The notes below the pieces were generated by a model that made no database searches, was not told the origin of the DNA, and saw only the letters and a program-made list of their open reading frames with translations. A stretch of DNA of 64,000 bases, taken from assembly GCF_014268655.2 (NCBI RefSeq), contig NZ_JABWQX020000001.1, forward strand, positions 4,122,001-4,186,000, read 5' to 3'. Shown piece after piece: positions 839 to 24,573 of the stretch (positions are counted from its first letter, which is position 1; each line of letters opens with the position of its first letter). The DNA is from Pseudomonas marvdashtae (GTDB lineage: Bacteria; Pseudomonadota; Gammaproteobacteria; Pseudomonadales; Pseudomonadaceae). The position numbers and the translations under genes are program-made.

Positions 839-1765
839 TCAGTCGCGATAGAGAATCGCCGAGCCCCATGACAGGCCAACACCGAAACCGCTGATCGCAA
901 CGCGCTTCCAGTCGGCATCCAAGACGTGCTTTTCCAGCAGCAGCGGAATGCTCGACGACACGGTGTTGCCGGTCTCGACCATGTCCTTGATGAATTTCTC
1001 TGGCTCGCCCTCGAAGCGCCGGGCCACGGCATCGACAATCGCCGCACTGCCCTGGTGGATGCAGAATGCATCGATGTCGCTGGCTTGCAATGAGGATTCA
1101 TTCAACAGTTCATGCAAATGAGCCGGTACTTTCAGCAAGGCGAAGTTGAACACCTGGCGACCGTTCATGAAAAACACGCCGTCGCTGACCTTCAGGTGCG
1201 GCGCGCCGGATCCGTCGGTGCCGAACTTGGCCTTGCCCAACTGCCAGCTCGCGCCTTCGGCCATCCAGGTGGCGGTGGCGGCATCGCCGAACAACATCGT
1301 GGTGTTGCGGTCTTCAGGGTCAACGATTTTCGAATACGGGTCAGCGGTGACCAACAGTCCGTTCTTCAATCCCGTGGCCTCCATGAAGCCTTTCAGGGCG
1401 TAGATGCCGTAGACGTAGCCCGAGCAACCCAACGAGATATCGAACGCCGCCACATGGGTCGGCAACCCAAGCTTGTCCTGCACGATGGCAGCCGTGTGCG
1501 GCAGCCCCTCTTCGTCACCGTTCTGGGTGACAACGATCAACGCGTCGATTGATTCGCGCGAAAGCTGCGGATTGTTGGCGAACAGTGCATTCACAGCTTC
1601 GACACACAGGTCCGACGTTTCCTGGTCGACGTCTTTGCGCGGCAGGAATGCCGAACCAATCTTGCCAAGGATGAACTCTTCATCCTTCTCGAATTTGGCA
1701 CCCTGAGCGTAGTTATCCACACCAGCGGTCGGCACATAACTCGCTATGCTTTTTATGCCAATCAT
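839..1765 (-). CDS. FabH-like 3-oxoacyl-ACP synthase III of the flagellar glycosylation locus
   Basis: Thiolase-fold ketosynthase III of 308 residues. The catalytic triad is intact: Cys114 (LGCSG), His237 (CIHQG) and Asn267 (ETGNTVSSS). Start chosen at ATG 1765 (MIGIKSIASYV) because GGGAAG lies 5 nt upstream; an ATG one codon earlier is also possible. Known family context: an ORF for a FabH-like enzyme lies between the flagellin glycosyltransferases and fliC in P. syringae, where its loss affects flagellin glycosylation. Inference: it makes or loads a short 3-hydroxyacyl group used to N-acylate the amino sugar of the flagellin glycan, rather than serving bulk fatty acid synthesis. It has its own terminator and a 333-bp upstream gap, so it may be a separate transcription unit. 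Confidence 0.9.
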   Translation of the reverse strand: MIGIKSIASYVPTAGVDNYAQGAKFEKDEEFILGKIGSAFLPRKDVDQETSDLCVEAVNALFANNPQLSRESIDALIVVTQNGDEEGLPHTAAIVQDKLGLPTHVAAFDISLGCSGYVYGIYALKGFMEATGLKNGLLVTADPYSKIVDPEDRNTTMLFGDAATATWMAEGASWQLGKAKFGTDGSGAPHLKVSDGVFFMNGRQVFNFALLKVPAHLHELLNESSLQASDIDAFCIHQGSAAIVDAVARRFEGEPEKFIKDMVETGNTVSSSIPLLLEKHVLDADWKRVAISGFGVGLSWGSAILYRD

Positions 1766-2098
1766 CATGGCTTCCCGATCATGTACTGCGACTAGGTTCA
1801 CCCCCAAAAGCTCAGGGGCGCTTTAAAAATGGTTGATTTCCGAGGGGCGGACGCCTTGTCCGGCGAACGAACAGGCCTCCACTCCGGGGAATACAATACA
1901 GTGAAGATGCACTTTGTGACCTATGCGTCACGCCGTTTTGTTCTGGAAAGGCATTTTTTCATGACAAACGAAGCTCCCGCGATGGCACGGGACGCCGAAA
2001 ACAAATTCGGGATGGCGGCGTGATTCGCAAAAGATGCCAGCAGGTTCTTGCCTGCCGACATCTATGGAAAGCCCCGCAAGGCGGGGCTATGGGGCAGG
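1766..2098. other. Intergenic region upstream of the ketosynthase gene
   Basis: No gene supported. It holds the terminator of the upstream glycosyltransferase (2068-2087) and an inverted repeat GTGAC-CTATGC-GTCAC at 1916-1931. The repeat resembles a dimeric regulator site but has the wrong half-site spacing for a standard CRP/Vfr site. No convincing RpoN or FliA promoter was found here, so how the ketosynthase gene is transcribed is unclear. Confidence 0.5.
2068..2087 (-). terminator. Probable terminator after the 964-residue glycosyltransferase
   Basis: Perfect 7-bp GC stem GCCCCGC-AAG-GCGGGGC (2071-2087); on the minus strand it is followed by TTT, 11 nt downstream of the stop codon. Short U-tract, so efficiency is uncertain. 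Confidence 0.65.
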
Positions 2099-4993
2099 TC
2101 AGTTGAGCAAGTCGGTCCAGGGTACGTTGCGCACCGGGCCGAGGGCGAAACCCTCGCCTTCCAGCGCCAGGTTGCCGTTGTAGAACCGATCCTGGGCAAA
2201 CGCCCCGAACCACTTCTCGCGCAACGCCGCAAGAGCCTGCGGCGTACTTGCCAGCACTCCGGACTGGATAACCTGCACATGGGGCGTCCATACCGTTAGA
2301 TAACCAGCCTGACCGACCCTCAGGCACAAGTCCACGTCACCCAAGGCATCGTCGAACAGCCCGCTGTCAACGCCATCAGCCGCTTCGAATAACTGCTTGG
2401 AAATCATCAGGCAGGCAAAGGACACCGCCGAACAATTCTGCTCGACCACCAACCGGTTCATATAACCTTTGGCGGTCTTCGGCTCGCCGACGAATGCCGA
2501 GCCAACGCCGTCATTCAAACCCAGGATCAGGCCGGCCTGGGTGATACTGCCATCACGCTCGACCAGCTTGGCGCCGACCACGCCAACTTCCGGGCGCAAC
2601 ACTTGGTTGAGCAGCGATTCAATCCAATTGACGTTGACCACTTCGCTGTCGGCCGCCAGTGTCACCAGATAATCGCCCTTGGCTTCCTGGCTCGCAGCGT
2701 TGATCAGCGTCCCCGCCGCGACGCCCGCGTCGATATCCAACAGCCGAACGCGACTGGCCAGGTGTCCCTGGCCATCGAGCCAGGTGCGCAGCACGGAATG
2801 GTTTGCGGCCTCGGTGGGAACCAGTACTTCGTAACGCTGATATCGGGTGCGCTGCAGTACGCTGAGCAGGCAACGTTGTAGCGCCGTAAGATCGCCGATG
2901 CCATGGACGATAATCGACACCAGGGGGCGCTCGGCAAAGCGGTAGTCGATTTTATGCGTACCCGGCACGACCGCGCTCACGTCGGCTTGATAACCGCGAA
3001 CCGCCAGGTGACGCAGCAAGGTCTTGCGCTCATCGGCGTTGTCTTCCACCGCCAGCGCCTGGCAAGTCAGCAGCGGCTCATCCAAATGGGCAAGCCCGTC
3101 CAGGCCGTCTTGCTCGATCAAACGCAACAGCAGATCGAACTCCATCGCATTCTTGAACTCGCGCGAATAACCGCCGAGCCTTACCAACGTCTCGCGGCGT
3201 ACCAGCCAATGACGGGCCATCAAGGCCGGGGCGCTTTGCAGCAAGTCAAGGTTGAACCCTGGCCGAAAGACATCGACCAGCGTCCCGTCAGGCTGGCGCT
3301 GGAACTCGTCCATTGCCACGGCTTGGCATTGTGGTGCGGCCAGTAATTCCACACCCGCGCGGAACAGGCCGCCCGGCGTCAATTCATCACCGGCCTCGGC
3401 CATGACCATCCAATCGCAATCGCTCTGGTTGACGACCTGATTGATTTTGTCGACGTAATTGCTTTCGTTGACTCTCACGAAATGCAGGACGTTCTGTGGC
3501 GTCGTCTCGGCCGGCAGGGCACCGGTGGTAAACACGACGATCTTGAACGCCCGGCAATAGCCATTGATGATGCTGTCGAAGGTTGCCTGCATCTTAAAGA
3601 CGTCGGCTTCCAAATCCAGGATCAAAATACCGAACGTGGGGCCACCGTTACGAGCGGCCAAGTATTTGGATACTTGATGGGTTTCCCTGGCGCTGGGTTC
3701 ACGCGCCTCGAGCCAGCGCAGCAATTGACCTGAGCGCGTGGTGTCGAACAGCCTCGCGGTATTTTCAAATGCTGCCGCCTTGAGCCGTTGCACCCAGGCC
3801 TGGAGCACTTGCACGTAACGCTTGTCACCCTTGGCCTGCATAACCTCGAGCAGGTGCTTCACCAGATCCTGGTTGAAGGCATAGCTCAGGAAAGCCCTCG
3901 CCAGCTGTTCATCAAGCGGCTCGGCGCTGGTGTTGCGCTGGAGGCGAGACAGCTCCTTCTGCTTGAGCATGACGGCTTCCAGCTCCTTCAACTGCACCTG
4001 CCCGCTTGGCGCCGCATGAAGCAGGAATTCCAGCGACGTGAGCACGTCGAAAAAAGCCTGGTTGTAAAAGGGCAACTCAACGTATTGCGTCGGCTCGAAA
4101 CGCCGAACCGGTTCGCCGCGCCGCGAATCCCAAGTCGACTCGAACAGTTTTTCTGTTTGCGGTACCGAACGCTCGCCCAGCTTCTTGACAATGATCTTGG
4201 CCTGTTCCCGCGCCGTGGCATCCGTGCCGAAGGCACTGGCCAAGGCCGTGGCAAAACGCTCCTGTTCAGCGACCGCACGCATGTCCACGGAGCCAGGCGC
4301 CGTGGTGACCGAGCCCTGTGGCTTCACCACGCGGCTGCGCTCCTGCACCCCATAGGGAATGTCCAGCAAGCGGACCCTTGCCTGGGCCACCACTCCATAG
4401 GAATGGCCGGCCTGCTGCAATCGCGAATCAAAACCGGCGGGCAACGAAGCGTAACTGCGCCGCAGGGTTTCAGTGCGCGTAAGTGCGCTCACCAACGATG
4501 GGCAATCCTCGGCGAACACGGCCAGCCGGGCTTCGGCCGATGCGCCGGAATAATCCTCACAACCCTTGCGATCGAGCAAGTAATAGTCGACACGGTCGGC
4601 ATGGGCCTCGAACGCCAGGCTGTAGCCTTGGCAGGCACCGTACTCGGCGTGTGCTTCGAGGAACATCAACGATTGTTCGAGCGCTTGGGGCAGCAGGAAA
4701 CTCTCGGCATCGGCAATCGCCAGGTAAGGCGTAGACACCCGCTCGACGGCCTGGCGAACCTTGTCACCGAACCCACCCGCCGTGGGCGCGTGCAGGTATT
4801 GCACGCTGGGGAATGCTGCCGCGATCCCAGCGTCAATCAGGCTGGATGAGTCGATCACCAGCACGGCGAACGAACTGTCGCGATAGTGGCGCAACGCCCG
4901 CCGCAGGGCAGTCGACTGGTCGTGGGCGAGCAGCACCAGGGTAAACCGTTCATTCAACGGCGCAGTCGATCCTGTTGGGACATTGCTTTGCAT
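2099..4993 (-). CDS. Multidomain family 2 glycosyltransferase (flagellin glycosylation), 964 aa
   Basis: Cytoplasmic protein with three GT-A-like segments, numbered from the longer ORF start (4999): residues about 17-210 (FTLVLLAHDQSTALRRALR), 455-650 (with AEAGDELTPGG) and 691-905 (PLVSIIVHGIGDL, with AADSEV and GDVDLCLRV). The second and third segments are clearly homologous to the middle of the 1168-residue glycosyltransferase at 17494-21000. The start is moved to ATG 4993 because AAGGA sits 6 nt before it, whereas it abuts ATG 4999. It follows the 1198-residue glycosyltransferase by about 60 bp in the same operon. Position between flgL and fliC matches the fgt1/fgt2 flagellin glycosyltransferases of P. 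syringae; that substrate assignment is inference. Confidence 0.88.
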   Translation of the reverse strand: MQSNVPTGSTAPLNERFTLVLLAHDQSTALRRALRHYRDSSFAVLVIDSSSLIDAGIAAAFPSVQYLHAPTAGGFGDKVRQAVERVSTPYLAIADAESFLLPQALEQSLMFLEAHAEYGACQGYSLAFEAHADRVDYYLLDRKGCEDYSGASAEARLAVFAEDCPSLVSALTRTETLRRSYASLPAGFDSRLQQAGHSYGVVAQARVRLLDIPYGVQERSRVVKPQGSVTTAPGSVDMRAVAEQERFATALASAFGTDATAREQAKIIVKKLGERSVPQTEKLFESTWDSRRGEPVRRFEPTQYVELPFYNQAFFDVLTSLEFLLHAAPSGQVQLKELEAVMLKQKELSRLQRNTSAEPLDEQLARAFLSYAFNQDLVKHLLEVMQAKGDKRYVQVLQAWVQRLKAAAFENTARLFDTTRSGQLLRWLEAREPSARETHQVSKYLAARNGGPTFGILILDLEADVFKMQATFDSIINGYCRAFKIVVFTTGALPAETTPQNVLHFVRVNESNYVDKINQVVNQSDCDWMVMAEAGDELTPGGLFRAGVELLAAPQCQAVAMDEFQRQPDGTLVDVFRPGFNLDLLQSAPALMARHWLVRRETLVRLGGYSREFKNAMEFDLLLRLIEQDGLDGLAHLDEPLLTCQALAVEDNADERKTLLRHLAVRGYQADVSAVVPGTHKIDYRFAERPLVSIIVHGIGDLTALQRCLLSVLQRTRYQRYEVLVPTEAANHSVLRTWLDGQGHLASRVRLLDIDAGVAAGTLINAASQEAKGDYLVTLAADSEVVNVNWIESLLNQVLRPEVGVVGAKLVERDGSITQAGLILGLNDGVGSAFVGEPKTAKGYMNRLVVEQNCSAVSFACLMISKQLFEAADGVDSGLFDDALGDVDLCLRVGQAGYLTVWTPHVQVIQSGVLASTPQALAALREKWFGAFAQDRFYNGNLALEGEGFALGPVRNVPWTDLLN

Positions 4994-5056
4994 ATTCATT
5001 CCTTAACAAGTGGGTGGCCGCACCAGCGACACCGGGAGTTTCGTGGTTGAAACTCA

Positions 5057-8000
5057 TCAATCCGGTAGCCAACCATTGGCCCAGTACTGCAGGTTATCGC
5101 CGCGCAAGACAAAGTCGCGCAGCACCACTTCACGTAATTCGTCGCCCATCCGGTAACTGGCAATCGGATCCGCCAGGTGCATGCGGATGGCCTCCAGCCA
5201 TTCTTCGGTGCTGTTGGTGAGGACCCGGGTACAAGGCAGGTGCCCCCGGTAAGCCTCGGTATCCGAACAAATGACCGGATAGCCACACGCACCGTATTCC
5301 AGCAGGCGAAGGTTACTTTTGCAGTCGTTGAAAATATGAAATTCCAGCGGCGCCAAGGCCAAGTCCAGATTCAGGCTGGCAAGTTTTGCCGGATAAAGCG
5401 ACAGGCTCACGCCAGGATGAAACTCATGGATATAGGGCTTGAGCAAGTCGGGGCACATGCCAAAGAACACCCATTCAACTTCGTCAGCCAATTCCCGAAC
5501 GACATCGGCGATGAGTTCCAGGTCGCCACGGTGGCTGGTGCCGCCGCCCCAACCGATACGCGGCTTGCTGGAGGTTGCACGCTGGCTCCTGAGCTGATTC
5601 CACAGGCCGGCCGCCAGCATGTTCGGCACCACGCGGATGTCGTGGTGCATGCTGGACAAGACGTCCGCCAGCGGATGGGTGGACACCACGACCCGATCAC
5701 ACAGGCCGACTCCTCGGCGCAGCAGGTCCTCGAGATTGTCCGGCATATTACGCCTGTGCTCGTTTTTCTCCGGGATCCTGGCCACATAGTCATCCAGCTC
5801 GTAGATGCGCAGGGCCTTGGAGTAATTCTTGACCTGAGTGATGTCCTTGAATTTACCGGTGTTATAGCGGCCTTGAAGCACGATCACATCCGGTGATTGA
5901 CGCTCGATGTCGATGATCGAAGGCATGTCGTAGGCAACACGTCCCACAATTCGACCCGCCGCTTCCAGTTCGAACAGCGGTTGGCTGACCCGGTAATGCC
6001 CCACCGCCGAGGTGTTGAGCGCCAGCCCCAGGATCGAAGGTACGTTGCGGGCGATCAACGGATTCCATCCGGTGCGTGGGCCGGGCTCAAGACTGAAGCT
6101 TTTCCCGACCAGGGTCAGGTTACGGTTGTAGGCAGGATCGTTGGCGATCCTCGGCAACCAGCGCTGATAGAACACCTCTTGCTCATGCTCTAGCCGCTGC
6201 TTCCACGAAGGATCACGAGTCGCTTCCACGCCGGACGCCAGCACGACATTGCTGTAAGGTGTAGTGACGATCAAGTAACCATTTTTTCCGACCTGCTGGC
6301 ACAACTCCAGAGAGTTGATGCCCTGTGTTGTGATCGTCTCGTCAAACCCGCCCACCTCCCCCAGCACCTGCTTGCGCACCAACAGACAATGATCGCCGAC
6401 GGCGCTCCAGTTCTGCACCACCTGCAAGCGTTGCATGTAGCCGCCAGACGTCACCGGTTCGTTGACAAAGGCCCTACCCGCCAAGCCACCCAGCCCCATG
6501 ATCAAGCCGGAGTCGATGACCCGGCCTTGCAGGTTGAGTGTGCGAGGGCCGACGATACCGACTTCAGGACGCTGCCCATGATTGAGCAGTTCATCCAGCC
6601 AGGCCGCTTCACAAACGACGCAATTGGGGTTGAGCAACAACAGGTACTCGCCGCGGGCCTGTTGCGCGGCGAAGTTACGGACCACCGCCTCGCTGGCACT
6701 TTCGGAGTGCACGAAGATTCGCAACTTCTCGCTGCCCAGCTCGGCCATGGCCTGCAGCCAGTGCTGCAACTCGGCGTTTTCACTGGCGTTATCGACAATG
6801 ATGATTTCATAGTGCGGATACGCGGTTGTACTGATCAGGCTGTTGACGCAACGCTCCAGCGCGCTCAGATCATCCTTGACGCTGATGATGATCGACACCA
6901 GTGGACACTCGGCGAACAGGTACTCGATGCGTGGGATCAACGCCAGGAGCGACCCTGGGTGAAGCCGGTGCGGCACGCCGATACGCTGTAGATGAGCGCC
7001 GATCAGCCCGACGTTTTGCTGGATGACTTCCCGCAGGGATAGCCATTGGGCGAACGAAAACGTCGACTCGACCTGGACTTCTGGAATATGACCAATGACC
7101 TGCGGTCCATCCGTTTCCACCAGCCGCCAGATCAAGTCATGGGGCGCCAGTTCGCCCAGGCTCGAATCAAACCCACCCGAGGTCAGGAACCGCGCGCGCT
7201 CGAAAGCCAATGTCCGACCGACATAGGGATAACCGCGCATCAGGTCGAGATTGAAGTCGGGCTTGAAGATCGGCTCCGCCGACTTGTCATCCACCAGCGC
7301 ACCTTCATCACTGTAGATACAGGCAGCACTTGGTGAACTGACAATCCGGTCGGCCATGATCAGCAGCGCGGACTCAGTCAAGCGATCGCCGGCACGCAGC
7401 AGGTAGAACCAATCGGCGCCGTCCAGTTGAGGCAACAGCCCATTGAGCTGCTGCGCCCAGTCCGTTTGCAGACCAAGGCGCAGGACATGGTTGTCCATCG
7501 TCTGGCGACCGTTGGACAACAGCAGCACCGATTCGCAGGCATAGGCTTGGGCAGCGATGCTCTGCAGGGTAATGCTCAACGCATAAGGATCGTCATGCTC
7601 GTCGATAATGACGGGGACGATCATCGGACGATAGGCCCAGCGGGCGATCTGCCGGGACAAGACTTGCTTGCGCAACGAACTGAAACGCCGACACGCCAAC
7701 CACTGGGCATAAAGGTCTGCATAGCTTTCGGTGTCCGTACCGACTTGCGAACCGATAACGCCCTGACGAGTTGCAAGGATCGAGTAGACGTTGATTTCTT
7801 CCCACTCGGGCGCCCCTGGCTCCTTGGCCTGCCCCAGCGCCTGGTAACGTACCCAGCCACTGGCTGGCGCCGGCTCGCCGCTGCGCTGAGTCAGCATTTC
7901 CTTGAGCCATGTCAGCTCAAGCGTAGCCGCCGTAATCATCTTGGGCTGACGACTCAAGCGTTCCGGATACAACCGCTGGACGCTGCCCACGGAGCAAAGC

Positions 8001-8653
8001 TCGACCAGATTACCGCGGCGCAACAGGCAGATGAACAACGCGAAGTCGAGTACAGCTTCAAAGCCTTCACCGACCTGCGCCAGCGCTGGCAACAAGGTCT
8101 CGACATCCAGACGGCGCATCAGCGCACCACTGAAACCACCGAGGATGTTACGCGGTGATTTTTCAAAATACGCTAACAGGTCGTCGCCTTTGAACATCGC
8201 ATCGAATAGCGTGATGCCGGTGTTTTCCAAGCGGACCGGTAAGGCATAGCTGTCGGCATCGACCAAATGATGCTTGTTGATCACCAGCGAGACTTGCGCA
8301 TGCTCCTGGAGGATGGCCGCCTGTTGACTGACGCAGTACGCCAGCAACTGGTCGTCGTCGCAGAGGAACTTTATGAACTCGCCCCGGGCCTCCTCAAGAC
8401 AGCGCAACAGGTTCTGCTGGAACCCAAGCCGAGTCGGGTTACGCAGGTAGCGCACTGAAACATTGGAGCCTGTGCCAAGTTCTTGAACGATCTGCTCGAT
8501 TTCATCGGTGCGACAATCGTCGCAGATGACAATCTCAAGATTTTCGTAGGTCTGGTCGAGCGCACTTTGCAAGGCAAGATTGAAAAAGCATGGATTGAAC
8601 GCGGGGATGGCAATGCTGACAAGAGGAGCTGATTTCACACGCTTGGCTCTCAA
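5057..8653 (-). CDS. Giant glycosyltransferase: GT2 + GT2-like modules + C-terminal GT-B domain, 1198 aa
   Basis: Residues 10-230 form an apparently intact GT2 domain (PLVSIAIPAFN, DXD-type CDDD at 98-101). Residues about 345-545 are a second GT-A-like segment (IYSDEGALVDDK). Residues 584-800 are a third, beginning PLVSIIISVKDDL, but its metal-binding motif reads NPN (675-677) and the downstream acidic motif reads INSLELCQQ, so it looks degenerate. Residues about 870-1198 are a GT-B (GT1/GT4-like) domain with IGWGGGTSHRGD and the C-terminal YGACGYPVICSD. The start codon is TTG (8653); a GTG at 8638 (VKSAPLVSI) is an alternative, and neither has a strong ribosome site. Likely transfers sugars to flagellin; acceptor is inferred from location between flgL and fliC. 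Confidence 0.88.
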   Translation of the reverse strand: MRAKRVKSAPLVSIAIPAFNPCFFNLALQSALDQTYENLEIVICDDCRTDEIEQIVQELGTGSNVSVRYLRNPTRLGFQQNLLRCLEEARGEFIKFLCDDDQLLAYCVSQQAAILQEHAQVSLVINKHHLVDADSYALPVRLENTGITLFDAMFKGDDLLAYFEKSPRNILGGFSGALMRRLDVETLLPALAQVGEGFEAVLDFALFICLLRRGNLVELCSVGSVQRLYPERLSRQPKMITAATLELTWLKEMLTQRSGEPAPASGWVRYQALGQAKEPGAPEWEEINVYSILATRQGVIGSQVGTDTESYADLYAQWLACRRFSSLRKQVLSRQIARWAYRPMIVPVIIDEHDDPYALSITLQSIAAQAYACESVLLLSNGRQTMDNHVLRLGLQTDWAQQLNGLLPQLDGADWFYLLRAGDRLTESALLIMADRIVSSPSAACIYSDEGALVDDKSAEPIFKPDFNLDLMRGYPYVGRTLAFERARFLTSGGFDSSLGELAPHDLIWRLVETDGPQVIGHIPEVQVESTFSFAQWLSLREVIQQNVGLIGAHLQRIGVPHRLHPGSLLALIPRIEYLFAECPLVSIIISVKDDLSALERCVNSLISTTAYPHYEIIIVDNASENAELQHWLQAMAELGSEKLRIFVHSESASEAVVRNFAAQQARGEYLLLLNPNCVVCEAAWLDELLNHGQRPEVGIVGPRTLNLQGRVIDSGLIMGLGGLAGRAFVNEPVTSGGYMQRLQVVQNWSAVGDHCLLVRKQVLGEVGGFDETITTQGINSLELCQQVGKNGYLIVTTPYSNVVLASGVEATRDPSWKQRLEHEQEVFYQRWLPRIANDPAYNRNLTLVGKSFSLEPGPRTGWNPLIARNVPSILGLALNTSAVGHYRVSQPLFELEAAGRIVGRVAYDMPSIIDIERQSPDVIVLQGRYNTGKFKDITQVKNYSKALRIYELDDYVARIPEKNEHRRNMPDNLEDLLRRGVGLCDRVVVSTHPLADVLSSMHHDIRVVPNMLAAGLWNQLRSQRATSSKPRIGWGGGTSHRGDLELIADVVRELADEVEWVFFGMCPDLLKPYIHEFHPGVSLSLYPAKLASLNLDLALAPLEFHIFNDCKSNLRLLEYGACGYPVICSDTEAYRGHLPCTRVLTNSTEEWLEAIRMHLADPIASYRMGDELREVVLRDFVLRGDNLQYWANGWLPD

Positions 8654-8712
8654 CCGGTGGGCGCCAACTCAGGCGAGAGCAGGACGTCCTGAATCGTATA
8701 AAGGAACGGGTC

Positions 8713-8740
8713 AGGGACCGCTTATAACGTCACGGTCCCT
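8713..8740. other. Hairpin between flgL and the glycosyltransferase operon
   Basis: AGGGACCG (8713-8720) and CGGTCCCT (8733-8740) form a perfect 8-bp stem with a 12-nt loop in the 95-bp gap after flgL. No clear T-run follows on the minus strand, so it may be an attenuator or mRNA-stabilising element rather than a full terminator. Confidence 0.5.
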
Positions 8741-10314: not shown

Positions 10315-10327
10315 GGGCTACGGCTCC

Positions 10328-12394: not shown

Positions 12395-12404
12395 GGTTCA
12401 GACC

Positions 12405-13709: not shown

Positions 13710-13720
13710 GGCCGTTTTCC

Positions 13721-15547: not shown

Positions 15548-15610
15548 GACCCTACCTCTTGGTGTTGCAGGCGGCCTCAGGCCGCCCTGTCTACGGATTT
15601 TGCGACGTAA

Positions 15611-16396
15611 TTACAGATTCTGCGTAACGAACGAGAGCATCTGGTCGGCGGTGGAAATCACCTTGGAGTTCATCTCGTAGGCGCGCTGGGTGGTGATCAT
15701 GTTGACCATCTCCTCAACGGTGCTCACGTTCGAGGTTTCCAGGGTGTTCTGCAGCGTGGTGCCGAAACCGTTCAGGCCCGGGGTGCCGACTTGCGGCGCG
15801 CCGCTGGCGGCGGTTTCCATGAACAGGTTGTTACCCACCGCTTGCAGGCCGGCCGGGTTGATGAAGTCAGCGGTCTGCAGGTTGCCGATCACTTGGGAGG
15901 CCGGGTTGCCCGCAATGGTGATGGACACGGTGCCGTCGCGGCCCACGGTGAAGGTCTGGGCATCGTTCGGAATGATGATGGCCGGCTCCAGGGCGAAACC
16001 GCTGGCGTTGACGATCTGGCCATTGGAATCGAGGTGGAACGTACCGTCACGGGTGTAGGACGTGGTGCCGTCCGGCTGCAGGATCTGGAAGAAACCGCGA
16101 CCGTCGATGGCCATGTCCAGCGGCTGCTCGGTGGTTTGCAGGCTGCCGGCGTTGAAGTTTTTCTGGGTGCCGACGATGCGCACACCGGTACCCACTTGCA
16201 GGCCCGACGGCAATTCGCTGTCCTGGGTCGACTGGGCGCCCGGCTGGCGTTTTACCTGGTAGAGCAAGTCCTGGAACTCGGCGCGATCACGCTTGAAACC
16301 CGTGGTCGAAACGTTCGCCAGGTTGTTGGAAATAGTGGAAAGGTTGGTGTCCTGGGCGGACAGGCCTGTTTTGGCAACCCAAAGAGCCGGAAGCAT
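15611..16396 (-). CDS. flgG: Distal rod protein FlgG
   Basis: 261 residues, the family's standard length. N-terminus MLPALWVAKTGLSAQDTNL followed by STISNNLANVSTTGFKRDRAEFQDLLYQ is characteristic, as is the C-terminal TSNVSTVEEMVNMITTQRAYE motif that packs in the rod core. Located 49 bp after flgF and 63 bp before flgH on the same transcript. Confidence 0.97.
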   Translation of the reverse strand: MLPALWVAKTGLSAQDTNLSTISNNLANVSTTGFKRDRAEFQDLLYQVKRQPGAQSTQDSELPSGLQVGTGVRIVGTQKNFNAGSLQTTEQPLDMAIDGRGFFQILQPDGTTSYTRDGTFHLDSNGQIVNASGFALEPAIIIPNDAQTFTVGRDGTVSITIAGNPASQVIGNLQTADFINPAGLQAVGNNLFMETAASGAPQVGTPGLNGFGTTLQNTLETSNVSTVEEMVNMITTQRAYEMNSKVISTADQMLSFVTQNL

Positions 16397-16445
16397 TCGA
16401 TTCTCCTCGTACGCCTGTTTTTCGGCGCAACGCTGTAATTAATAG

Positions 16446-17183
16446 TTAGATCTGCAAGACCCGAGCCATGGCTTCATCGCCTTCTTTGGCGGTGGTCATC
16501 ATCTTGACGTGGAGCTCGAACTGCTTGGCCAGGGCCAGCACCGAAGTCATCTCGTCCACGGCATTGACGTTGCTCGCCTCCTGGAACCCCGACACCAATT
16601 GCACGTTGGCATCGATGGGCGCCGCCTGGCCGTCCTTGGTACGGATCGAACCGTCCAGGCCCTTGGTCATGGTCTTGAGGTCCGGGTTGACCAGCTTGAT
16701 GCGATCCACTTCAGCCATCACGCGCGGGCCTTCGCCCATGGCGCGGATGCTGATGGTGCCGTCCTGGCCGATCTCGATTTTCTGCTCCGGCGGCACGGCG
16801 ATCGGACCACCGTTGCCCATCACCGGCATGCCGTTGCCGGCCCGCAGCACACCCAGCGCATCGACATTGAGGCTGCCGGTGCGCACGTAGCTTTCGCCGC
16901 CGTCTGGGTTCTGCACGGCCATCCAGCCCGGGCCGCTGACCGCCACGTCGAGGTCGCGACCGGTTTCAATCAGCGCACCCGGGGTGAAGTCGGTGGCGGG
17001 ACGCTCGGACATCGCAAACGCCCGCGCCGGAAAGCTGTCGCCAAACACCGGCATCGAACGTGCCTGCTCCAGGTCTTTCTGAAAACCATTGGTGGAGATG
17101 TTCGCCAGGTTGTTGGCATGGGCCCGTTGCGCCAGCGCGTTTTGGCTGGCGCCGGTCATTGCCACATAAAGGTACTTGTCCAC
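16446..17183 (-). CDS. flgF: Proximal rod protein FlgF
   Basis: 245 residues; starts VDKYLYVAMTGASQNALAQ and contains ANNLANISTNGFQKDLEQAR and the C-terminal SNVNAVDEMTSVLALAKQFE motif. Start set at GTG 17183, with AGAGG about 8 nt upstream, rather than a longer in-frame extension. First gene of flgFGHIJKL, about 47 nt downstream of the predicted RpoN transcription start. The partner operon flgBCDE is not in this window. Confidence 0.96.
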   Translation of the reverse strand: MDKYLYVAMTGASQNALAQRAHANNLANISTNGFQKDLEQARSMPVFGDSFPARAFAMSERPATDFTPGALIETGRDLDVAVSGPGWMAVQNPDGGESYVRTGSLNVDALGVLRAGNGMPVMGNGGPIAVPPEQKIEIGQDGTISIRAMGEGPRVMAEVDRIKLVNPDLKTMTKGLDGSIRTKDGQAAPIDANVQLVSGFQEASNVNAVDEMTSVLALAKQFELHVKMMTTAKEGDEAMARVLQI

Positions 17184-17493: not shown

Positions 17494-20400
17494 TCAGTTG
17501 GGCAACCATCCCTGAACCCAGTGCGCCGCATAGGCATCGTCAAAGACCCAACGGCCCAGCACTTGCTCGCGCAGTCGCTCTCCTTGCTGCCGTGAGGCCT
17601 GCCGATCTGCCAGATGAGCATTGATCGCCTCCAGCCATTGTTCTGGGCTGTCAGCGACGCGCGTGATAGCGAGATCGCTCAGGCTACCGGCGGCATCGCT
17701 GCCGATTACGCTGTAACCGCAAGCGCCATACTGGAGATGATGAAGCGGACCGGCGCCTTCGTCGGCCTGGCCGAAGCCCTGTGGCGCGAGGACGATATCC
17801 AGATTGAGGCTGGCCATGACCTCGGGGTTGTCGTGTACCTCGTCATGAACCTCGCTGGCGAGCGGTTGCAGATATCCAGGTACATCCCCCCAGAGCACCC
17901 ACTCCACTTGACCGGCCAACGCTTGCATCAGGCCGAGGATCAACGGCTGGACGAAAGGCTTCGCCGGGTCGATCGCGCAACCTATGCGAGTGATACCAGA
18001 CGCCTGGCGCACAGTGGCGAGGTTGCGCCATTTGCTGCCCAGGCGTGTTTCGAGAACACGAATATCCTGGTGCAGCCCGGCACAGGCCTGGGCCATCGCA
18101 GGCGTTGGCACAACGATACGGTCGACCAGGTTCGCCGCTTGTTGCAGCGAAGCCATCCATCCGGGAGCCTGCGGCGTCAGTACATCCAGTTCAAGGATCT
18201 TGAACGCTTTGGAGAGGGTGTGGATGTGCCGCATCTGCTCCAGGCGCAGTGGGTCGGCCTGATGCTGGAAAATAATGACGTCGGGGTTGTAGCGCGCAAG
18301 CGTCGTCGCCGGTAACAGGCTGTTGCTGATGCAGCCTTCGATTCTGCCGCCGTCACGCAAAGCCGTGAACGGCTCGACAATACGTGGACTGGCGATTTTT
18401 GCCGACTTCCCAGGATGCACCAACACCACCGGAAGCGGCCGCCAGGACAGCGGTCGCCAGGTCAGTTCGTTGATGGCTTCCAGCTCGAAGCCGGCACCCC
18501 GTAGTGACAGATTGCTGTTGTAGGCGGGATCATTGGCCAGGACGCCCAGCCATTTGCTCAAGGCCTGCTCTTGCTCCATGGCGAAGCGTCGCTGGTTGAG
18601 TGGGTCCTTGCCGATGCTTGACCAGGTCGCTCCACCTTCATGCAAGAGCACGGCATGAGGCGTCCAGACATTCAGATAGCCAAGGTTCGCCACTTTCAGG
18701 CACAGGTCCAGGTCATTGCAGGTGACTTGAAACAGTGTGTCGTCCATGCCGCCAGCTTCCAGGTAGTTCGCCGTGCGGATCATCAGGCACGCGGCACTGA
18801 CCGCACTGGTGTTTTGGTCGACCAGCAGACGTTGCATGTAGCCACCGCCGCTGGCAGCCTGATCAATGAAGGGGCTACCAGCGGGGCCGCGCAGGCCAGT
18901 GATCAGACCCGCATGCTGGACGGTACCTGCCGGGGTAACCAGCTTGGCGCCGACAACCCCTACTTCCGGGCGCAAGGCGTGGTTGAGCAGCTCGTCCAAC
19001 CAATCTTCGCGAATGACTGCCGTATCGTTGTTCAACAACACCAAGTACTCGCCGCGGGCCTGGCTGGCCGCCAGATTGTTCATGGCGCTGAAGTTGAACG
19101 GATGGGGGAAGCGGATGACGCGGACCTTGTCACCCCCGATCGACTCCATCTCGCTCAGCCAGATGAGCGCCTCTTCGGCCTCGCTGCCATTGTCGATCAG
19201 GATGATCTCGAAGTGGGGATAGCGGGTCTTCGACAACAGGCTTTCCACGCAGCGCTGCAGCAGAGGCAACTGGTCTTGGGTAGGAATCAGGATCGACACC
19301 AGTGGTTGTTGATCATGACCGTACTTGATGTGGTAATGCCTGGCTGGTTCCTGCAGGATCCTGGCATTTGTATAACCGCGATTGTCCAGGTGCCTTTGCA
19401 AGGCATGCAACTCATCAGGGTTATCGGCAAGCGTCGGCGCGTTGCTGGCTACCAGCGGTTCGCTCAGGTGGGCAATGCCATTCATGCTCCCGGCTTCGAT
19501 CAAACGCAGGATCAGGTCCAGCTCAAGCGCCGCTGGCACCTGTGGATCGTATCCACCGACCTCCAACGCCAGTTTGCGACGGATCAGCCAATGGTTGGCC
19601 ATTGTCAATGGCAGGCTCAGGAGGTAGTCGAGGTTGATGCAAGGCCGAAAAACCGCTTGGGGCCCATTCTCCGAGCGATACATGCCATCGCAGTAAATCA
19701 TCCGGCAGCCATCGGCGCCCGGCAGCTCCAGGTCGAGCATCAACGTGCCGCCGGGCAGGACCTCGTCACCAGCCGTCAGCAGCATGACCCAGTCGCTGTC
19801 GTCTGCCTGCAGAACCTCGTTCAATTCGACGGCGCCCGGGTTGGCGCAGGTCAGCCAGTGGAGGTTGTCCGGCAGATTGACAGGCGATGGCGAGGTGCTC
19901 AGTACCACCATGCGCAAGCTGATCGAGGAACGCGATCGCCACAGCGCAAGACTTTCCAAGGTATCGCTCAAGGCATTGAAGTCGCCCAAAGGATCGCGCA
20001 TCAACAGCGTCAGGCTGGTTTGTCCGCTGAGTTGCTGACGACGCCCGTCGACAAGTCGCTGCTGGATCGGCGTCAGTACACGGTTGCGCAGCCAGTCCTT
20101 GACGGTGGGTACATGCGCGTCAATGGCGTACTGGATGGCAGTCTGCTGGGTGATATCAATGAAACGCTCCAGCTGGGGCCAAAAGGCCTTTTCGATGTCC
20201 AGCCAGCGCCTGCGCGCCTGCATCACGGTTGCGCGGGCGCGCTCTAGCCCCCCGGGCTCGTCGTAAAGCGCAGCGCCCGCGTTACCAAACTGCTCGACGA
20301 AAGGCTGAGTCTTGACGTGACCGCCGGGCATGTAGATAACCGGACAGCCACAGAGCATGGCCGCAGTGCACGTAGATGAGATTTCGTAACTGTAAAGCGT

Positions 20401-21000
20401 CGAAGCCGTGCGAAAAATCTGTGCCACCTGGGCCAGGGTCTTCGGGTTGGCCATGCTCAGGACTTCGATATCGTCCGGCAACGTCGAGTAGTCGACCTTA
20501 GATCTGTCGATGCGGTTCAGATACAGGTAGTTGCCGGTGCGCTGCACCGGCTCGGTTGGCGGTGAAAACAACTCCGAGTCGATGACCGGCAACAGGAGAA
20601 GGTTACTGTTATCGCTCTCGCCACCGAAATCCTGGGTGTAATAGAAAAACAGGTCTGATTTTTTCGCGTTTATCCCACGACCCGTGAGGAAGCCTTCACG
20701 GTTCAGCATGTAACGGACTACGATCGGTGCGTCTATTGGGTTACCGTCTATCACCTCGGAATACACAGCAATGGGCGCCAAGCCTAGCGACCTGTGCTGC
20801 CGACGCAACTCGTCGGTAAGGATCGGGGTGCGCAGTTTCGGATTGACCTGGCATGGCGTGAGATAGGCCTCGTAGCCGGACAGGTTCAGAACGTGACACA
20901 GGTGATGCAGTACGCATACGCCCGAGGATGTCTCCCGATAGTGGGGGGCGGCGATATAGTAAGGGTGACGCGGCTTGCCATGCAGGGATGGGGTGGTCAT
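17494..21000 (-). CDS. Giant glycosyltransferase with GT2 core and GT-B-like ends, 1168 aa
   Basis: Residues 1-300 resemble a GT-B type domain (YYIAAPHYRETSSGV at the start; CTAAMLCGCPVIYMPGG at 211-226). Residues about 325-530 are a GT-A-like segment with TAGDEVLPGGT. Residues 567-790 are a complete GT2 domain: PLVSILIPTQDQL, the DXD-type NND at 657-659 and CNDLDLCLK near 761-769. Residues about 858-1168 are another GT-B-like domain ending WVQGWLPN, homologous to the end of the 1198-residue enzyme (YWANGWLPD). ATG 21000 has CAAGG 8 nt upstream and overlaps the 59-codon ORF by ATGA. Last gene of the sugar operon; presumably builds the flagellin glycan. Confidence 0.88.
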   Translation of the reverse strand: MTTPSLHGKPRHPYYIAAPHYRETSSGVCVLHHLCHVLNLSGYEAYLTPCQVNPKLRTPILTDELRRQHRSLGLAPIAVYSEVIDGNPIDAPIVVRYMLNREGFLTGRGINAKKSDLFFYYTQDFGGESDNSNLLLLPVIDSELFSPPTEPVQRTGNYLYLNRIDRSKVDYSTLPDDIEVLSMANPKTLAQVAQIFRTASTLYSYEISSTCTAAMLCGCPVIYMPGGHVKTQPFVEQFGNAGAALYDEPGGLERARATVMQARRRWLDIEKAFWPQLERFIDITQQTAIQYAIDAHVPTVKDWLRNRVLTPIQQRLVDGRRQQLSGQTSLTLLMRDPLGDFNALSDTLESLALWRSRSSISLRMVVLSTSPSPVNLPDNLHWLTCANPGAVELNEVLQADDSDWVMLLTAGDEVLPGGTLMLDLELPGADGCRMIYCDGMYRSENGPQAVFRPCINLDYLLSLPLTMANHWLIRRKLALEVGGYDPQVPAALELDLILRLIEAGSMNGIAHLSEPLVASNAPTLADNPDELHALQRHLDNRGYTNARILQEPARHYHIKYGHDQQPLVSILIPTQDQLPLLQRCVESLLSKTRYPHFEIILIDNGSEAEEALIWLSEMESIGGDKVRVIRFPHPFNFSAMNNLAASQARGEYLVLLNNDTAVIREDWLDELLNHALRPEVGVVGAKLVTPAGTVQHAGLITGLRGPAGSPFIDQAASGGGYMQRLLVDQNTSAVSAACLMIRTANYLEAGGMDDTLFQVTCNDLDLCLKVANLGYLNVWTPHAVLLHEGGATWSSIGKDPLNQRRFAMEQEQALSKWLGVLANDPAYNSNLSLRGAGFELEAINELTWRPLSWRPLPVVLVHPGKSAKIASPRIVEPFTALRDGGRIEGCISNSLLPATTLARYNPDVIIFQHQADPLRLEQMRHIHTLSKAFKILELDVLTPQAPGWMASLQQAANLVDRIVVPTPAMAQACAGLHQDIRVLETRLGSKWRNLATVRQASGITRIGCAIDPAKPFVQPLILGLMQALAGQVEWVLWGDVPGYLQPLASEVHDEVHDNPEVMASLNLDIVLAPQGFGQADEGAGPLHHLQYGACGYSVIGSDAAGSLSDLAITRVADSPEQWLEAINAHLADRQASRQQGERLREQVLGRWVFDDAYAAHWVQGWLPN

Positions 21001-21176
21001 ACGGTTGCCTTGGGGCTGGAGAGTTGCTCACAAATGACAAAGACACTGGCGCACAGGACGCTCTTCAGGTAGGTACCGCTCGTGAAGGGTCGAGGGGATA
21101 CGGGCATACCACCCCAGCAGTGGGAGGGCAGACAGACGTAGCCGTTCGCTTGCAGCGCTTGCAACACCTGGCTCAT
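20997..21176 (-). CDS. 59-codon ORF coupled to both neighbours (small protein or gene remnant)
   Basis: Begins MSQVLQALQANGYVCLPSHC and ends SPKATV. Its ATG overlaps the acyltransferase stop as ATGA (21173-21176) and its stop overlaps the glycosyltransferase start as ATGA (20997-21000), the same coupling used elsewhere in this operon. The first half uses codons like its neighbours (GCG, CTG, GGC, TAC, GTC); the second half is rich in Cys and Ser and less convincing. I do not recognise a family. It could be a real small protein, a translational relay, or the N-terminus of a deleted gene. No transmembrane segment is evident. Confidence 0.4.
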   Translation of the reverse strand: MSQVLQALQANGYVCLPSHCWGGMPVSPRPFTSGTYLKSVLCASVFVICEQLSSPKATV

Positions 21177-21730
21177 AGGTTGTCTCCCCGCGCGGCTTGC
21201 CAGACGCGGTACTCTTCGGCGCTCACGCCCAGCATGATGCGGTCCCAACGCTGGCCCTTGCGGTAGTACCACTGGCGCTGCACCCCCTCGATGACCCAAG
21301 GGGTCTTGCGCGTGTAGGTCGCCAGGGACGCTGCGTTGTACTCGATGATGGTGGTCGAGAGACGGCTCAGGCCCAGTTCGTCGAAGGCATAGCGCATTAC
21401 CGTGGCAATCACGTCGGTGCCATGGCCTTGGCCACGCAGGGAGGGATCACCGATCATCATGCCGTGTTCGGCGGTGCGATTTTTCCAGTCGATGCCAACC
21501 AGATTCGCCGTACCAATCAGGCCATGGCCCGGGACCTCGATACCGAAGCGCTGGTTGAGCAAGTCTCCCTTGAGACCCAACAGCCAGTCCCGCTGCGCTT
21601 CCCGCGATGTGGGGAAATGCCAGCCGCCCAGCAGGCTCCAGAGAGCTTCGTCGTTGGACCACTGATGCAGCAGCGGCAAGTCCTCGAGCTCCAGCGCTCT
21701 GAGCAGGATGCGTTGACCTAGAATGCTCAT
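21173..21730 (-). CDS. GNAT-family N-acyltransferase
   Basis: 185 residues with a GNAT fold. The acetyl-CoA pyrophosphate loop is RGQGHGTDVI (about 98-107), preceded by EHGMMIGDPSLRG and followed by NAASLATYTRKTPWVIEGVQR, as in RimJ/RimL-like acyltransferases. Overlaps the upstream PLP enzyme by ATGA (21727-21730). Inference: N-acylates the 4-amino sugar made by the transaminase in the same operon, the role played by VioB-type enzymes in other bacteria. The acyl donor might be supplied by the ketosynthase at 839-1765. Confidence 0.82.
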   Translation of the reverse strand: MSILGQRILLRALELEDLPLLHQWSNDEALWSLLGGWHFPTSREAQRDWLLGLKGDLLNQRFGIEVPGHGLIGTANLVGIDWKNRTAEHGMMIGDPSLRGQGHGTDVIATVMRYAFDELGLSRLSTTIIEYNAASLATYTRKTPWVIEGVQRQWYYRKGQRWDRIMLGVSAEEYRVWQAARGDNL

Positions 21731-22722
21731 GATTTCCCCGTGTTCTGAAGGATGGCGTCGGCGAGACGATTCATGTCATCGACGTTGTAGCGCTGGTCGA
21801 TCGGCAGCGGCAGCAAGCACTGCGCCCAATCCCTTTCATTAGGCGGTGCCGTTGGATTGCTCAGCACTTCACGCCAGTAGCTGGGTACATAGATGTGTTG
21901 ATCCAGCAGTTGAGCGCGTAGCCGGGTAGCCGTCTCGGCGGACTTGACCAGCAGCGGATAGCACAATGCTGCAACAGGCTGCGCGGGCCAGATAGCGAAG
22001 CGGTTGAGGTGGTCCAGGCGACGGCGCAGTTGCGCCAGGTTGTCTATCCTGCGCCTGGCGACTTCCTGGTAATCGATACTGTCGAGCAAGCGTGCGGTAC
22101 TGGCAGCCATGGCCTTGATGCCATCGCTCTCCAGCGCCTGTTCCAATGCCTGGAATGCCGCATAATGATCTTGCGGAGCGTCTTCAAGGCGCCCCAGCAG
22201 CGCGGCAAACCGGGCCTGGGAGCGGCTGCCCTGCGCTTGCGGCAGATCAGCCGGCGCATTGACCAGCCAGCCGCCATCGGCAACGCCGACAAACTTGCGT
22301 GGTGAGTAAAGGGTTGCAATCCCGGGTTGCGGCTTGGAAAACAGCGCCTGGGAATTGTCGACGATCAGTTGCTCGCCGTAGCGAACAGCAAGTACTTCGC
22401 CCATGTAATCAGCCTTGAGCCCGAAGTAATCGACAAACAGCAGAGCCTCATCGGCTTGCAGGGCTGGGAAGTCCCGCAGCTCGAGCCGTTCGGTCAGCGC
22501 ATACCGCAACACCTCGATGCCGGATCCGCGCAGCACGTCCTGCATGACGTCGCAGATGTAGACAGGCAGGTGAACCCGGCGCAAGTTACGCGCCAACATC
22601 AATGCCTTGAAGGCCGAGCGGGCCGAGTTGAAGGCAACAGCCTGCGGGTAAGGATTGTGCCCTTTGCGCAGTTCCAGCTCGAAATAACCGCCGATGGCTT
22701 CACGCACGGAGAATTTCTCCAC
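21727..22722 (-). CDS. DegT/DnrJ-like PLP-fold protein
   Basis: 331 residues of fold-type I PLP enzyme character: FNSARSAFKALMLA (substrate loop, 31-44), VDNSQALFSK (121-130) and YSPRKFVGVADGGW (139-152), where Lys143 is the likely PLP Schiff base. It is shorter than normal sugar aminotransferases (about 370-390) and divergent. Start GTG 22722 overlaps the WbqC-like gene by 23 bp; a GTG a few codons later (VREAIGG) is possible. Role in nucleotide-sugar modification is inferred from the operon; activity cannot be told from sequence. Confidence 0.75.
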   Translation of the reverse strand: MEKFSVREAIGGYFELELRKGHNPYPQAVAFNSARSAFKALMLARNLRRVHLPVYICDVMQDVLRGSGIEVLRYALTERLELRDFPALQADEALLFVDYFGLKADYMGEVLAVRYGEQLIVDNSQALFSKPQPGIATLYSPRKFVGVADGGWLVNAPADLPQAQGSRSQARFAALLGRLEDAPQDHYAAFQALEQALESDGIKAMAASTARLLDSIDYQEVARRRIDNLAQLRRRLDHLNRFAIWPAQPVAALCYPLLVKSAETATRLRAQLLDQHIYVPSYWREVLSNPTAPPNERDWAQCLLPLPIDQRYNVDDMNRLADAILQNTGKS

Positions 22723-23458
22723 CTTTTGCCCAGGCCCCCACCGTCTGCGCGTCGTTGTACATCAGGACGTCGAGAATTGACAGGCCGGGCACGAAGGGTT
22801 GTTCGCGCCCTCCCTGCCGGTAGTTGGGTAAGGTCGCCTTGAGCAACTCAAGGGTAATACCAACCTGTTGGAATACCTCGACCTGATAAAGGTGACCGCC
22901 ATTGACCGGATTGAGGTAGTGGGTGCCAGCGCAGGCCTGAACCACTTCGAGTACCCGGTCCTGGGCTTTGCTATCCGCGCAAATCGACAGATCGCTGGAG
23001 CGGATGATCGGCGTTTGCAACCCGATCAGCGCGCAGCAGGCCCGTAGGATTCGTTCGTTGAGCTCGGCAATGCTCGAAGCCGGCTCGACCAGCAGCGCTT
23101 CCAGCCACCCCAGCATGCGCGGCGCGTGTGGAGCGCGGCGATAGGCGAAGCTCAACTTGTTGAGAATATCGCCAGGGTCGAACGTCTCGGCAATCCGTTT
23201 TTCCATGATCTGCTGGGTGTGACTGCTCTTGCTCAGCGGGACCCGAAACCACTTCGGCTCTTGCTCCAGCAGATAACGGTTACGTTCGATCCAGCCGTTC
23301 TTGATGAACTGCACATTGTCGTAGATGACAAAACAGTCGACTGCAGCGATCAGCTGGAAATAGCCCAGATAAGGCAGGAAATAAGGTTGCATGAGCGCAA
23401 CCCGGTACTGCTCGTCAGTTGCCGGGACGCACGTCTTCGAGGTGTTGGCTTGGCTCAT
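22700..23458 (-). CDS. WbqC-family protein
   Basis: 252 residues; the diagnostic N-terminal segment is VALMQPYFLPYLGYFQLI followed by VDCFVIYDNVQFIKNGWIERN and later YLNPVNGGHLY. WbqC-like proteins occur in O-antigen and flagellar glycan clusters; their biochemical role is not well established. Start ATG 23458 overlaps the transaminase stop by ATGA (23455-23458). Confidence 0.85.
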   Translation of the reverse strand: MSQANTSKTCVPATDEQYRVALMQPYFLPYLGYFQLIAAVDCFVIYDNVQFIKNGWIERNRYLLEQEPKWFRVPLSKSSHTQQIMEKRIAETFDPGDILNKLSFAYRRAPHAPRMLGWLEALLVEPASSIAELNERILRACCALIGLQTPIIRSSDLSICADSKAQDRVLEVVQACAGTHYLNPVNGGHLYQVEVFQQVGITLELLKATLPNYRQGGREQPFVPGLSILDVLMYNDAQTVGAWAKGGEILRA

Positions 23459-24573
23459 GCCGCCTGGGCCCTCATCAGCACCTCGATGATTTTCGCCTGG
23501 GTCTGCGGATCGAGATCCGGATAGATCGGCAGGCACAGTACCTGGCGGGACACGTTGTAGGCGTTGCCCAATTGAGAGAGGTCCGAACTGGGAAGACCTC
23601 GATACATTGGAAACTCGCATATCAGCGGGTAGAAATACCGGCGCACGAGAATGTTTTCTGCACGATAGCGGTCGTACAGTTCATCCCGGCTCACCCCGAA
23701 CCGCTCACCATCAACCAGGATCGGACAGTAAGCATAATTCCAATCCAGCCCCTGCGGTTGTTCCAGCAGGCTGATACCGGGAATGCCCTCCAGGGCGCTC
23801 CGATAATACTCAAACACCTTCTGCCGACGGCTGAGCGCCTCATCGATATAGCGCAACTGCAGCACACCGAATGCCGCCTGCAACTCATTCATCTTCCCGT
23901 TGATACCGGGAGCCATGACCGTGACTTCATCGGCAAAACCGAAGTTCTTCAGGTAATCGATACGCTGTTTGATCTTTTCATCACGGCAGATGATCGCGCC
24001 GCCTTCGAAAGTATTGAACACCTTGGTAGCGTGGAAGCTGAGGATCGACAGGTCGCCGTTATTGAGAATACTTGCACCGTTGTGTCGGACCCCGAAGGCA
24101 TGTGCGGCGTCATAGATAACCTTGAGTCCGTAGGTATCGGCTACGGCCTGGATCCCCTCGACATCGCAGGGAACGCCATAACAATGGACCGGGAGAATCG
24201 CCGAAGTTGCCGGAGTAATGGCTTCGGCGATACGTCGTGGGTCGAGGTTCTTGGTGACTGGATCGATGTCCACGAATACCGGCTTGAGATTGTTCCACAG
24301 CAGCGAATGGGAAGTGGCCACGAACGAATAAGGAGTGGTGATGACTTCGCCAGTAATGCGCAGGGCCTGGAGCGCCGTCACCAAGGCCAGGGTACCGTTG
24401 GAAAACAACGACAGATGCTGGACACCGAGGTATTCAGCCAACTCCCGCTCCAGTTGTTCGTGGAAGGGGCCGCCATTGGTCAGGCGCTTACTGTCCCAGA
24501 TTCGCTGCAGGTAAGGCGTGAATTCTTCCAGAGGAGGTAGCAGCGGGCTGGTAACGGTAATGGAATCGGCCAT
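23455..24573 (-). CDS. VioA-like nucleotide-sugar transaminase (DegT/DnrJ/EryC1/StrS)
   Basis: 372 residues, the usual family length. Contains LFSNGTLALVTALQAL (PLP phosphate site), YDAAHAFG with Asp155, and the PLP lysine Lys184 in SFHATKVFNTFEGGA. FHATK-V-FNT-FEGGA is typical of dTDP-4-amino-4,6-dideoxyglucose (viosamine) transaminases (VioA) and relatives that convert dTDP-4-keto-6-deoxyglucose using glutamate. First gene of the sugar operon, about 125 nt downstream of a predicted RpoN start. Its exact sugar product (gluco or galacto) cannot be decided from sequence alone. Confidence 0.88.
   Translation of the reverse strand: MADSITVTSPLLPPLEEFTPYLQRIWDSKRLTNGGPFHEQLERELAEYLGVQHLSLFSNGTLALVTALQALRITGEVITTPYSFVATSHSLLWNNLKPVFVDIDPVTKNLDPRRIAEAITPATSAILPVHCYGVPCDVEGIQAVADTYGLKVIYDAAHAFGVRHNGASILNNGDLSILSFHATKVFNTFEGGAIICRDEKIKQRIDYLKNFGFADEVTVMAPGINGKMNELQAAFGVLQLRYIDEALSRRQKVFEYYRSALEGIPGISLLEQPQGLDWNYAYCPILVDGERFGVSRDELYDRYRAENILVRRYFYPLICEFPMYRGLPSSDLSQLGNAYNVSRQVLCLPIYPDLDPQTQAKIIEVLMRAQAA

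Follow-up and report, generated by a model that had tools for sequence, protein, structure and literature searches.

A putative mobile sugar cassette with a WbqC-family protein beside the flagellar rod and ring genes of Pseudomonas marvdashtae, and its predicted role in flagellin modification

Two kinds of described system come closest to the locus considered here, the viosamine island of Pseudomonas syringae, whose sugar is placed on flagellin, and a small set of Escherichia coli O-antigen clusters. In the parts of the P. syringae account drawn on here, the acyl group of the sugar is assigned to vioS, vioR, acp and vioB, on a separate island between gs and hk, and Table 1 holds no WbqC or pyridoxal phosphate (PLP)-fold gene (PMC3927599). 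As given in the sections of the sources used, the sugar of E. coli O123/O186 is viosamine (Qui4N) carrying an N-(3-hydroxybutanoyl)-D-alanyl group (PMC10609480), and that of Shigella dysenteriae type 7 and E. coli O121 is N-acetylglycyl-Qui4N (PMC10609480, PMC3210612). Here we describe five genes between phhR and flgF in a stretch of 64,000 nt from Pseudomonas marvdashtae ("the window", the whole stretch analyzed, to which all positions refer), which are probably a mobile sugar cassette that modifies flagellin by the pathway proposed below.

The minus-strand order is phhR, vioA, wbqC, a PLP-fold gene, a GNAT gene, a giant glycosyltransferase gene (GT1), flgF to flgL, two further giant glycosyltransferase genes (GT2 and GT3), a FabH-like gene and fliC. 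The genes that an earlier sequence-only reading had listed upstream of flgF and between flgL and fliC are present as it described them. The junction and the cassette contain the following features:

24754..26316, minus strand: phhR, sigma-54 activator of the TyrR/PhhR type, bordering the insertion site on the left (NCBIfam PRK10820 545.6 bits, below the cut-off of 576; HTH_TypR 88 bits)
24708..24724, minus strand: sigma-54-like -24/-12 element TTGGCCGATTTTTTGCT, starting 151 bp upstream of vioA (coordinates derived from that distance)
23455..24573, minus strand: vioA, dTDP-4-keto-6-deoxyglucose 4-aminotransferase of the DegT family, 372 aa (PF01041, E 1.9e-100)
22700..23458, minus strand: wbqC, 252 aa, assigned by Pfam to WbqC (PF08889) only; proposed amino-acid:amino-sugar ligase
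21727..22707, minus strand: PLP-fold protein gene, divergent DegT fold with an invariant Lys; proposed D-alanine provider or epimerase
21173..21730, minus strand: GNAT N-acyltransferase (PF13302, E 2.7e-20); proposed capper of the amino acid
21001..21172, minus strand: scar holding what is left of two genes, for a PhyH-type dioxygenase and a methyltransferase (tblastn)
17494..21000, minus strand: GT1, VioT-sized giant glycosyltransferase, 1168 aa (PF00535, E 9.8e-20)

The four genes from vioA through GNAT each run a few bases into the next and look like a single operon. The closest relatives of GT1 are Pseudomonas proteins of equal length. G+C values are lower in the cassette (56-61%) and in the slot between flgL and fliC (56-60%) than in the flg genes (about 62-63%).

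The E. coli O123/O186 cluster, like that of S. enterica O58, carries vioA, wbqC, the PLP-fold gene and GNAT in the order of the window, with identities to the window proteins in O123/O186 of 56% for VioA, 30% for WbqC, 37% for the PLP-fold protein (a "hypothetical protein" there) and 49% for GNAT. The O123/O186 module serves an O-antigen, has its own rmlAB and wzx and continues into a MaoC gene, whereas that of the window sits among flagellar genes and would act on flagellin. In O121, vioA (54% identity to the window) and wbqC (33%) are adjacent and followed by a GNAT-family gene without significant similarity to the window GNAT (E 0.20); no PLP match occurs in the first 18.6 kb of the cluster, and from there to gnd only glycosyltransferases are annotated. 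The O121/S. dysenteriae type 7 module, its gene order taken from O121, is therefore like that of the window but without the PLP-fold gene. It is in this system that wbqC was reportedly named.

A DNA search of 5,426 E. coli genomes located the O123-type wbqC-PLP pair in 10 and the O121 wbqC in 13, one of them labelled O103. Five other E. coli vioA clusters (L122-L125 and L209, some labelled O39, O49 or O116 by flippase or strain name) gave no wbqC match and the O7 cluster has none annotated; all six have vioB or another annotated acyltransferase beside vioA, and the O7 and O116 sugars are cited as N-acetyl in the parts of the sources used (PMC5867348, PMC6124807, PMC3210612). Gene content set against sugar structure across these clusters indicates that wbqC tracks the amino acid and, in the same small set, that the PLP gene tracks D-alanine and not glycine. 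On gene content, the acyl group is thus expected to be joined to the sugar through an amino acid, a possibility missing from the sequence-only reading, whose acylated 4-amino-4,6-dideoxy sugar is itself supported. It is improbable that WbqC and the PLP-fold protein instead act at another nucleotide-sugar step, a second transamination or a sugar epimerization, with GNAT merely N-acetylating the 4-amine, as in the two wbqC-bearing clusters O123 and O121 the published residue, in the sections used, is Qui4N plus an amino acid with no extra sugar amine, while the clusters without a wbqC match pair vioA with vioB or another acyltransferase. A further set, on the E. coli plasmid pLAU-OXA3 (L126), combines DegT, GNAT, ACC deaminase-like and ATP-grasp genes with no wbqC and may be another aminoacyl-sugar module.

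From the observed gene content, site occupancy, promoter-like motif, acceptor serines, gene remnants and synteny with E. coli O-antigen clusters whose sugar structures are published, we infer a pathway, its regulation and its glycan, in which WbqC would join viosamine to an amino acid and flagellin would come to carry N-acyl-(D-)alanyl-viosamine. Host RmlA and RmlB would supply dTDP-4-keto-6-deoxyglucose, which VioA would convert to dTDP-viosamine (dTDP-Qui4N); WbqC would attach an amino acid, which is probably alanine, at the 4-amino group of the sugar, with the PLP-fold enzyme providing the D-form residue or epimerizing to it. GNAT would then place an acetyl or a 3-hydroxybutanoyl group on the free amino group of the amino acid, either being conceivable for a cassette that has no MaoC gene. 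GT1 would add the sugar at the end of a glycan made by GT2 and GT3 on FliC serines, and a sigma-54-type promoter would bring the cassette into the flagellar regulon.

BshC, the bacillithiol synthase, couples cysteine to an amino sugar, and the predicted fold of WbqC is that of BshC and of class I tRNA synthetases, at less than half the length (252 aa against 529-531 aa in three BshC proteins, from a family found in four of the seven genomes searched). The PLP-fold protein has the DegT/DnrJ/EryC1/StrS (PF01041) fold with its catalytic Lys, although neither it nor its O123 relative has a Pfam match at E 0.01; its profile returned nothing useful from the PDB sequences. Among the best 80 of 553 PLP loci, an ATP-grasp ligase takes the place of WbqC in 23, WbqC occurs alone in 42, both occur in four and neither in 11 (Fisher p 3e-8). 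This exclusion is partly built in, as the search for either ligase was confined to the vicinity of the PLP gene, and the loci share ancestry; we therefore use it solely as a sign that the slot holds WbqC or an ATP-grasp ligase. A wider statement is tentative, and we hold it at somewhat less than an even chance: that WbqC (PF08889) proteins have a BshC/class I synthetase fold, ligate amino acids to amino sugars independently of tRNA and are swappable with ATP-grasp enzymes, that together with the PLP enzyme they make N-acyl-D-alanyl amino sugars, and that in Pseudomonas they belong to a sigma-54-controlled cassette that moves between flagellar sites and re-dresses flagellin. Among titles and abstract openings in the open literature we found no functional study of this large family; a role for WbqC may already have been proposed in work on O121, O123 or S. 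dysenteriae type 7.

The phhR-flgF junction was surveyed in other genomes of the genus. While flgF was found in 245 of 249 genus genomes, we took 100 flgF loci among the matches listed, with FlgF identity down to 82%, and passed over others of those matches, often near contig ends, so that the counts hold for this group and not for the whole genus. In 91 of the 100 loci phhR lies near flgF (of the remaining nine, two end at a contig edge and seven have no phhR match). The gap between the two genes is below 1 kb (213-868 bp) in 84 of these 91 genomes and 1.6-9.1 kb in seven, where about four kinds of insert can be told apart from open reading frame translations and tblastn rather than family scans. 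Three inserts (L004, L009, and L066) are a different sugar cassette with a WbqC-like protein at 26-28% identity, a VioT-sized glycosyltransferase 39-41% identical to GT1 and, by translation, a methyltransferase, epimerase, ATP-grasp, phosphoesterase and DegT protein. Two more (L020 and L078) are an apparent nap-like cluster for periplasmic nitrate reductase, about 4.5 kb long, which indicates that the junction accepts cargo unrelated to sugars, and the last two hold one methyltransferase-like gene and one gene without assignment.

Compared with nine near-empty sites, similarity in the window stops on the left no more than about ten bases from the phhR stop codon and picks up again about 175-205 bp before flgF, so that the flgF promoter region is retained. 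Gene order thus indicates that, in this Pseudomonas group, the phhR-flgF junction has received insertions repeatedly and that the sugar cassette came in beside the rod and ring operon, which itself was inserted into nothing. The opposite history, a glycosylation locus split in two by insertion of that operon, had been suggested from the sequence; we reject it, as the near-empty junction is the common state and the other inserts are unrelated. In one genome (L014 and L117, G108), phhR and flgI each appear to be split into two overlapping frames, probably by a sequencing or assembly error.

Searching with the PLP gene at E 1e-20 identified it in seven of the 249 genus genomes, the window's own included. 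The module occupies the phhR-flgF junction in the window and in P. brassicacearum CCUG 51508 (L127), and lies inside the flgL-fliC slot, between GT3 and FabH, in L128 (complete) and L103 (no GNAT match and an extra ATP-grasp gene). That of L102 adjoins a glutamine-synthetase fragment and a transporter gene near flgN/flgM/flgB-like genes (names from translations), a site that recalls the one in P. syringae; that of L104 has no recognized flagellar neighbors, and L107 is an O-antigen-like locus with the order rmlB-rmlA-vioA-wbqC-PLP-GNAT-wzx. In L105 and L106 the PLP gene stands alone. Some loci recur across sets (L102=L129, L103=L130, L105=L138, L106=L137), and the motif and FliC counts given below exclude these repeats.

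Several of these modules have a PhyH-type dioxygenase and a methyltransferase gene between GNAT and GT1 (L127, L128, L102/L129, and L104, with families confirmed on L104), while no PhyH match was found in L130, L131, L132, L134, or L139. At the corresponding position of the window, a tblastn search against this stretch alone recognized residues 241-261 of the dioxygenase (C-terminal) and residues 232-242 of the methyltransferase, at E 3e-8 and 8e-4 in so small a search space, with the next chance matches starting at E 0.07. The two tailoring genes intact in P. brassicacearum are, on this similarity, remnants in the window, whose sugar should therefore lack two tailoring steps kept in L127 at the same site. 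These clear remnants could also mean that the cassette is decayed and inactive, the lost dioxygenase and methyltransferase leaving a sugar that is not transferred. We consider this unlikely, as the five remaining frames are all open, with lengths like those of relatives where checked (WbqC, PLP, and GT1), the promoter-like motif is retained, and in P. syringae, in the available part of that study, the demethylated sugar was still transferred when vioM was lost (PMC3927599).

That motif was found with the pattern YTGG-N8-TTGCW, which has five matches in the whole window on both strands; a second sigma-54-like element lies 73 bp upstream of flgF. Such an element precedes vioA in 10 of the 12 distinct loci scanned, the window included (11 of 13 if L103 and L130, which come from one genome, are counted separately), and was found neither in the O-antigen-like L107 nor in L157, which has a GT1-like match all the same. 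Control of the cassette by a sigma-54-type promoter is thus plausible from the placement of the motif.

Several observations weigh against an aminoacyl-sugar pathway built on WbqC. Identity between WbqC and its E. coli counterparts is only about 30%, and the D-alanine link rests on two O-antigens with different acyl groups. Foldseek alone gave nothing significant for WbqC (best E 0.09, to an unrelated Uba1-Ubc13 complex, tyrosyl-tRNA synthetases next), and no BshC was among the 50 matches listed; the BshC match emerged from a second structural look. Homology of WbqC and BshC was also sought by sequence and not found (hhalign probability 0.2% against the three BshC proteins, a likeness at fold level only, with WbqC the sole Pfam assignment), and the WbqC profile has no relative among PDB sequences. 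None of the five cassette genes is a MaoC hydratase. A GNAT relative occurs in only 27 of the best 80 of 553 PLP loci, against 49 with any WbqC, and no GNAT match was found in the Pseudomonas module copies L103/L130, L131, L132, L134, and L139. Finally, orphan PLP-fold genes occur without wbqC or vioA nearby in L133, L135, L136, L137, and L138; those of L135 and L138 are flanked by an htpG-like gene on one side and a probable amino-acid transporter gene on the other.

The predicted acceptor lies beyond the rod and ring operon:

8749..17183, minus strand: flgF-flgG-flgH-flgI-flgJ-flgK-flgL (NCBIfam)
5057..8653, minus strand: GT2, giant glycosyltransferase open reading frame (PF00535, E 1e-35, two stretches), Fgt1-like by position only
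2099..4999, minus strand: GT3, giant glycosyltransferase (TIGR04440 and PF00535), Fgt2-like by position only
839..1807, minus strand: FabH-like ketosynthase III, with Cys, His and Asn motifs
3..560, minus strand: fliC, first 186 codons (PF00669, E 1.4e-44); full gene, 282 aa, in L222

The full-length FliC has Ser at 143, 164, 176, 183, 193, and 201, all six of the positions described as glycosylated in P. syringae pv. tabaci in the available part of that work (PMC3927599), which supports the flagellin glycosylation role already suspected from the sequence. The unmodified protein minus its Met has a computed mass of 29,387 Da; a terminal residue would compute to 258.12 Da as N-acetyl-alanyl-Qui4N, 302.15 Da as 3-hydroxybutanoyl-alanyl-Qui4N and 244.11 Da with glycyl and acetyl, against 245.13 Da for the mVio sugar of P. 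syringae. We aligned 17 FliC proteins, 16 of them distinct, leaving out five further loci (three with FliC too long, one cut short and one not found). In nine distinct FliC proteins with the window's GT2-GT3-FabH-type neighborhood, Ser143, Ser176, and Ser193 are present in 9/9, Ser164 and Ser183 in 8/9 and Ser201 in 3/9; in seven with distant GT2/GT3 relatives and a larger flgL-fliC slot, Ser143, Ser183, Ser193, and Ser201 occur in 0/7 and Ser164 and Ser176 in 4/7, these being counts over related proteins uncorrected for kinship. Two loci with no GT2/GT3 match between flgL and fliC, L111 and L119, have a longer FliC of 481 aa.

The likeness to P. syringae extends, in the parts of that account used here, to a vioA of 372 aa, a giant transferase of 1173 aa against 1168 aa for GT1, and two giant transferases near fliC, GT1-GT3 being likened by length and position only; the window vioA, by PF01041 and by similarity, is of the VioA type expected in such an island. 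The island itself, however, lies between gs and hk there, whereas the window cassette lies between phhR and flgF, and none of the five genes between phhR and flgF is vioS, vioR, acp or vioM, the methyltransferase persisting only as a C-terminal remnant. The cassette is, on gene content, not the P. syringae viosamine island. The same account suspects VioT of pv. syringae 642 to be inactive, other genes being lacking there (PMC3927599).

The FabH-like gene had been suggested as a possible source of the acyl group. In a survey of the flgL-fliC slot in 14 of the 249 genomes, all without the cassette, it lies upstream of fliC in every one (<350 bp away in seven and about 1.9 kb in seven), including four (L111, L116, L119, and L121) with no GT2/GT3 match between flgL and fliC. 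FabH is thus probably a constant neighbor of fliC and not part of the cassette, and we judge it unlikely to supply the acyl group of the cassette sugar. Of the earlier proposal, the acylated amino sugar on flagellin is supported, while the split-locus history and FabH as acyl source are not. It is improbable that the product of the cassette is 4-N-(3-hydroxybutanoyl)viosamine, the sugar of P. syringae, with its acyl chain coming from the fliC-linked FabH. VioA, a VioT-sized glycosyltransferase and intact FabH catalytic motifs would fit that outcome, but the cassette has no reductase, acyl carrier protein or VioS, its methyltransferase is only a remnant, FabH stays within 2 kb of fliC in the 14 cassette-free genomes, and WbqC and the PLP-fold protein would be left without a role.

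Flagellin glycosylation is a known class of modification, and what the aminoacyl-viosamine pathway adds is a predicted chemistry that differs from that of the P. syringae island and makes WbqC function testable. If true, it would provide testable chemistry for WbqC and for a PLP-fold family without a Pfam model, both found well beyond Pseudomonas, and the published O-antigen structures (O121, O123, and O7/O116) offer a calibration for the biochemistry. Flagellin is a main target of plant and animal immune recognition, so that knowing how its coat changes is useful; if the proposal holds, flagellin glycan chemistry in this Pseudomonas group can shift by gain of a whole sugar cassette at a fixed site.

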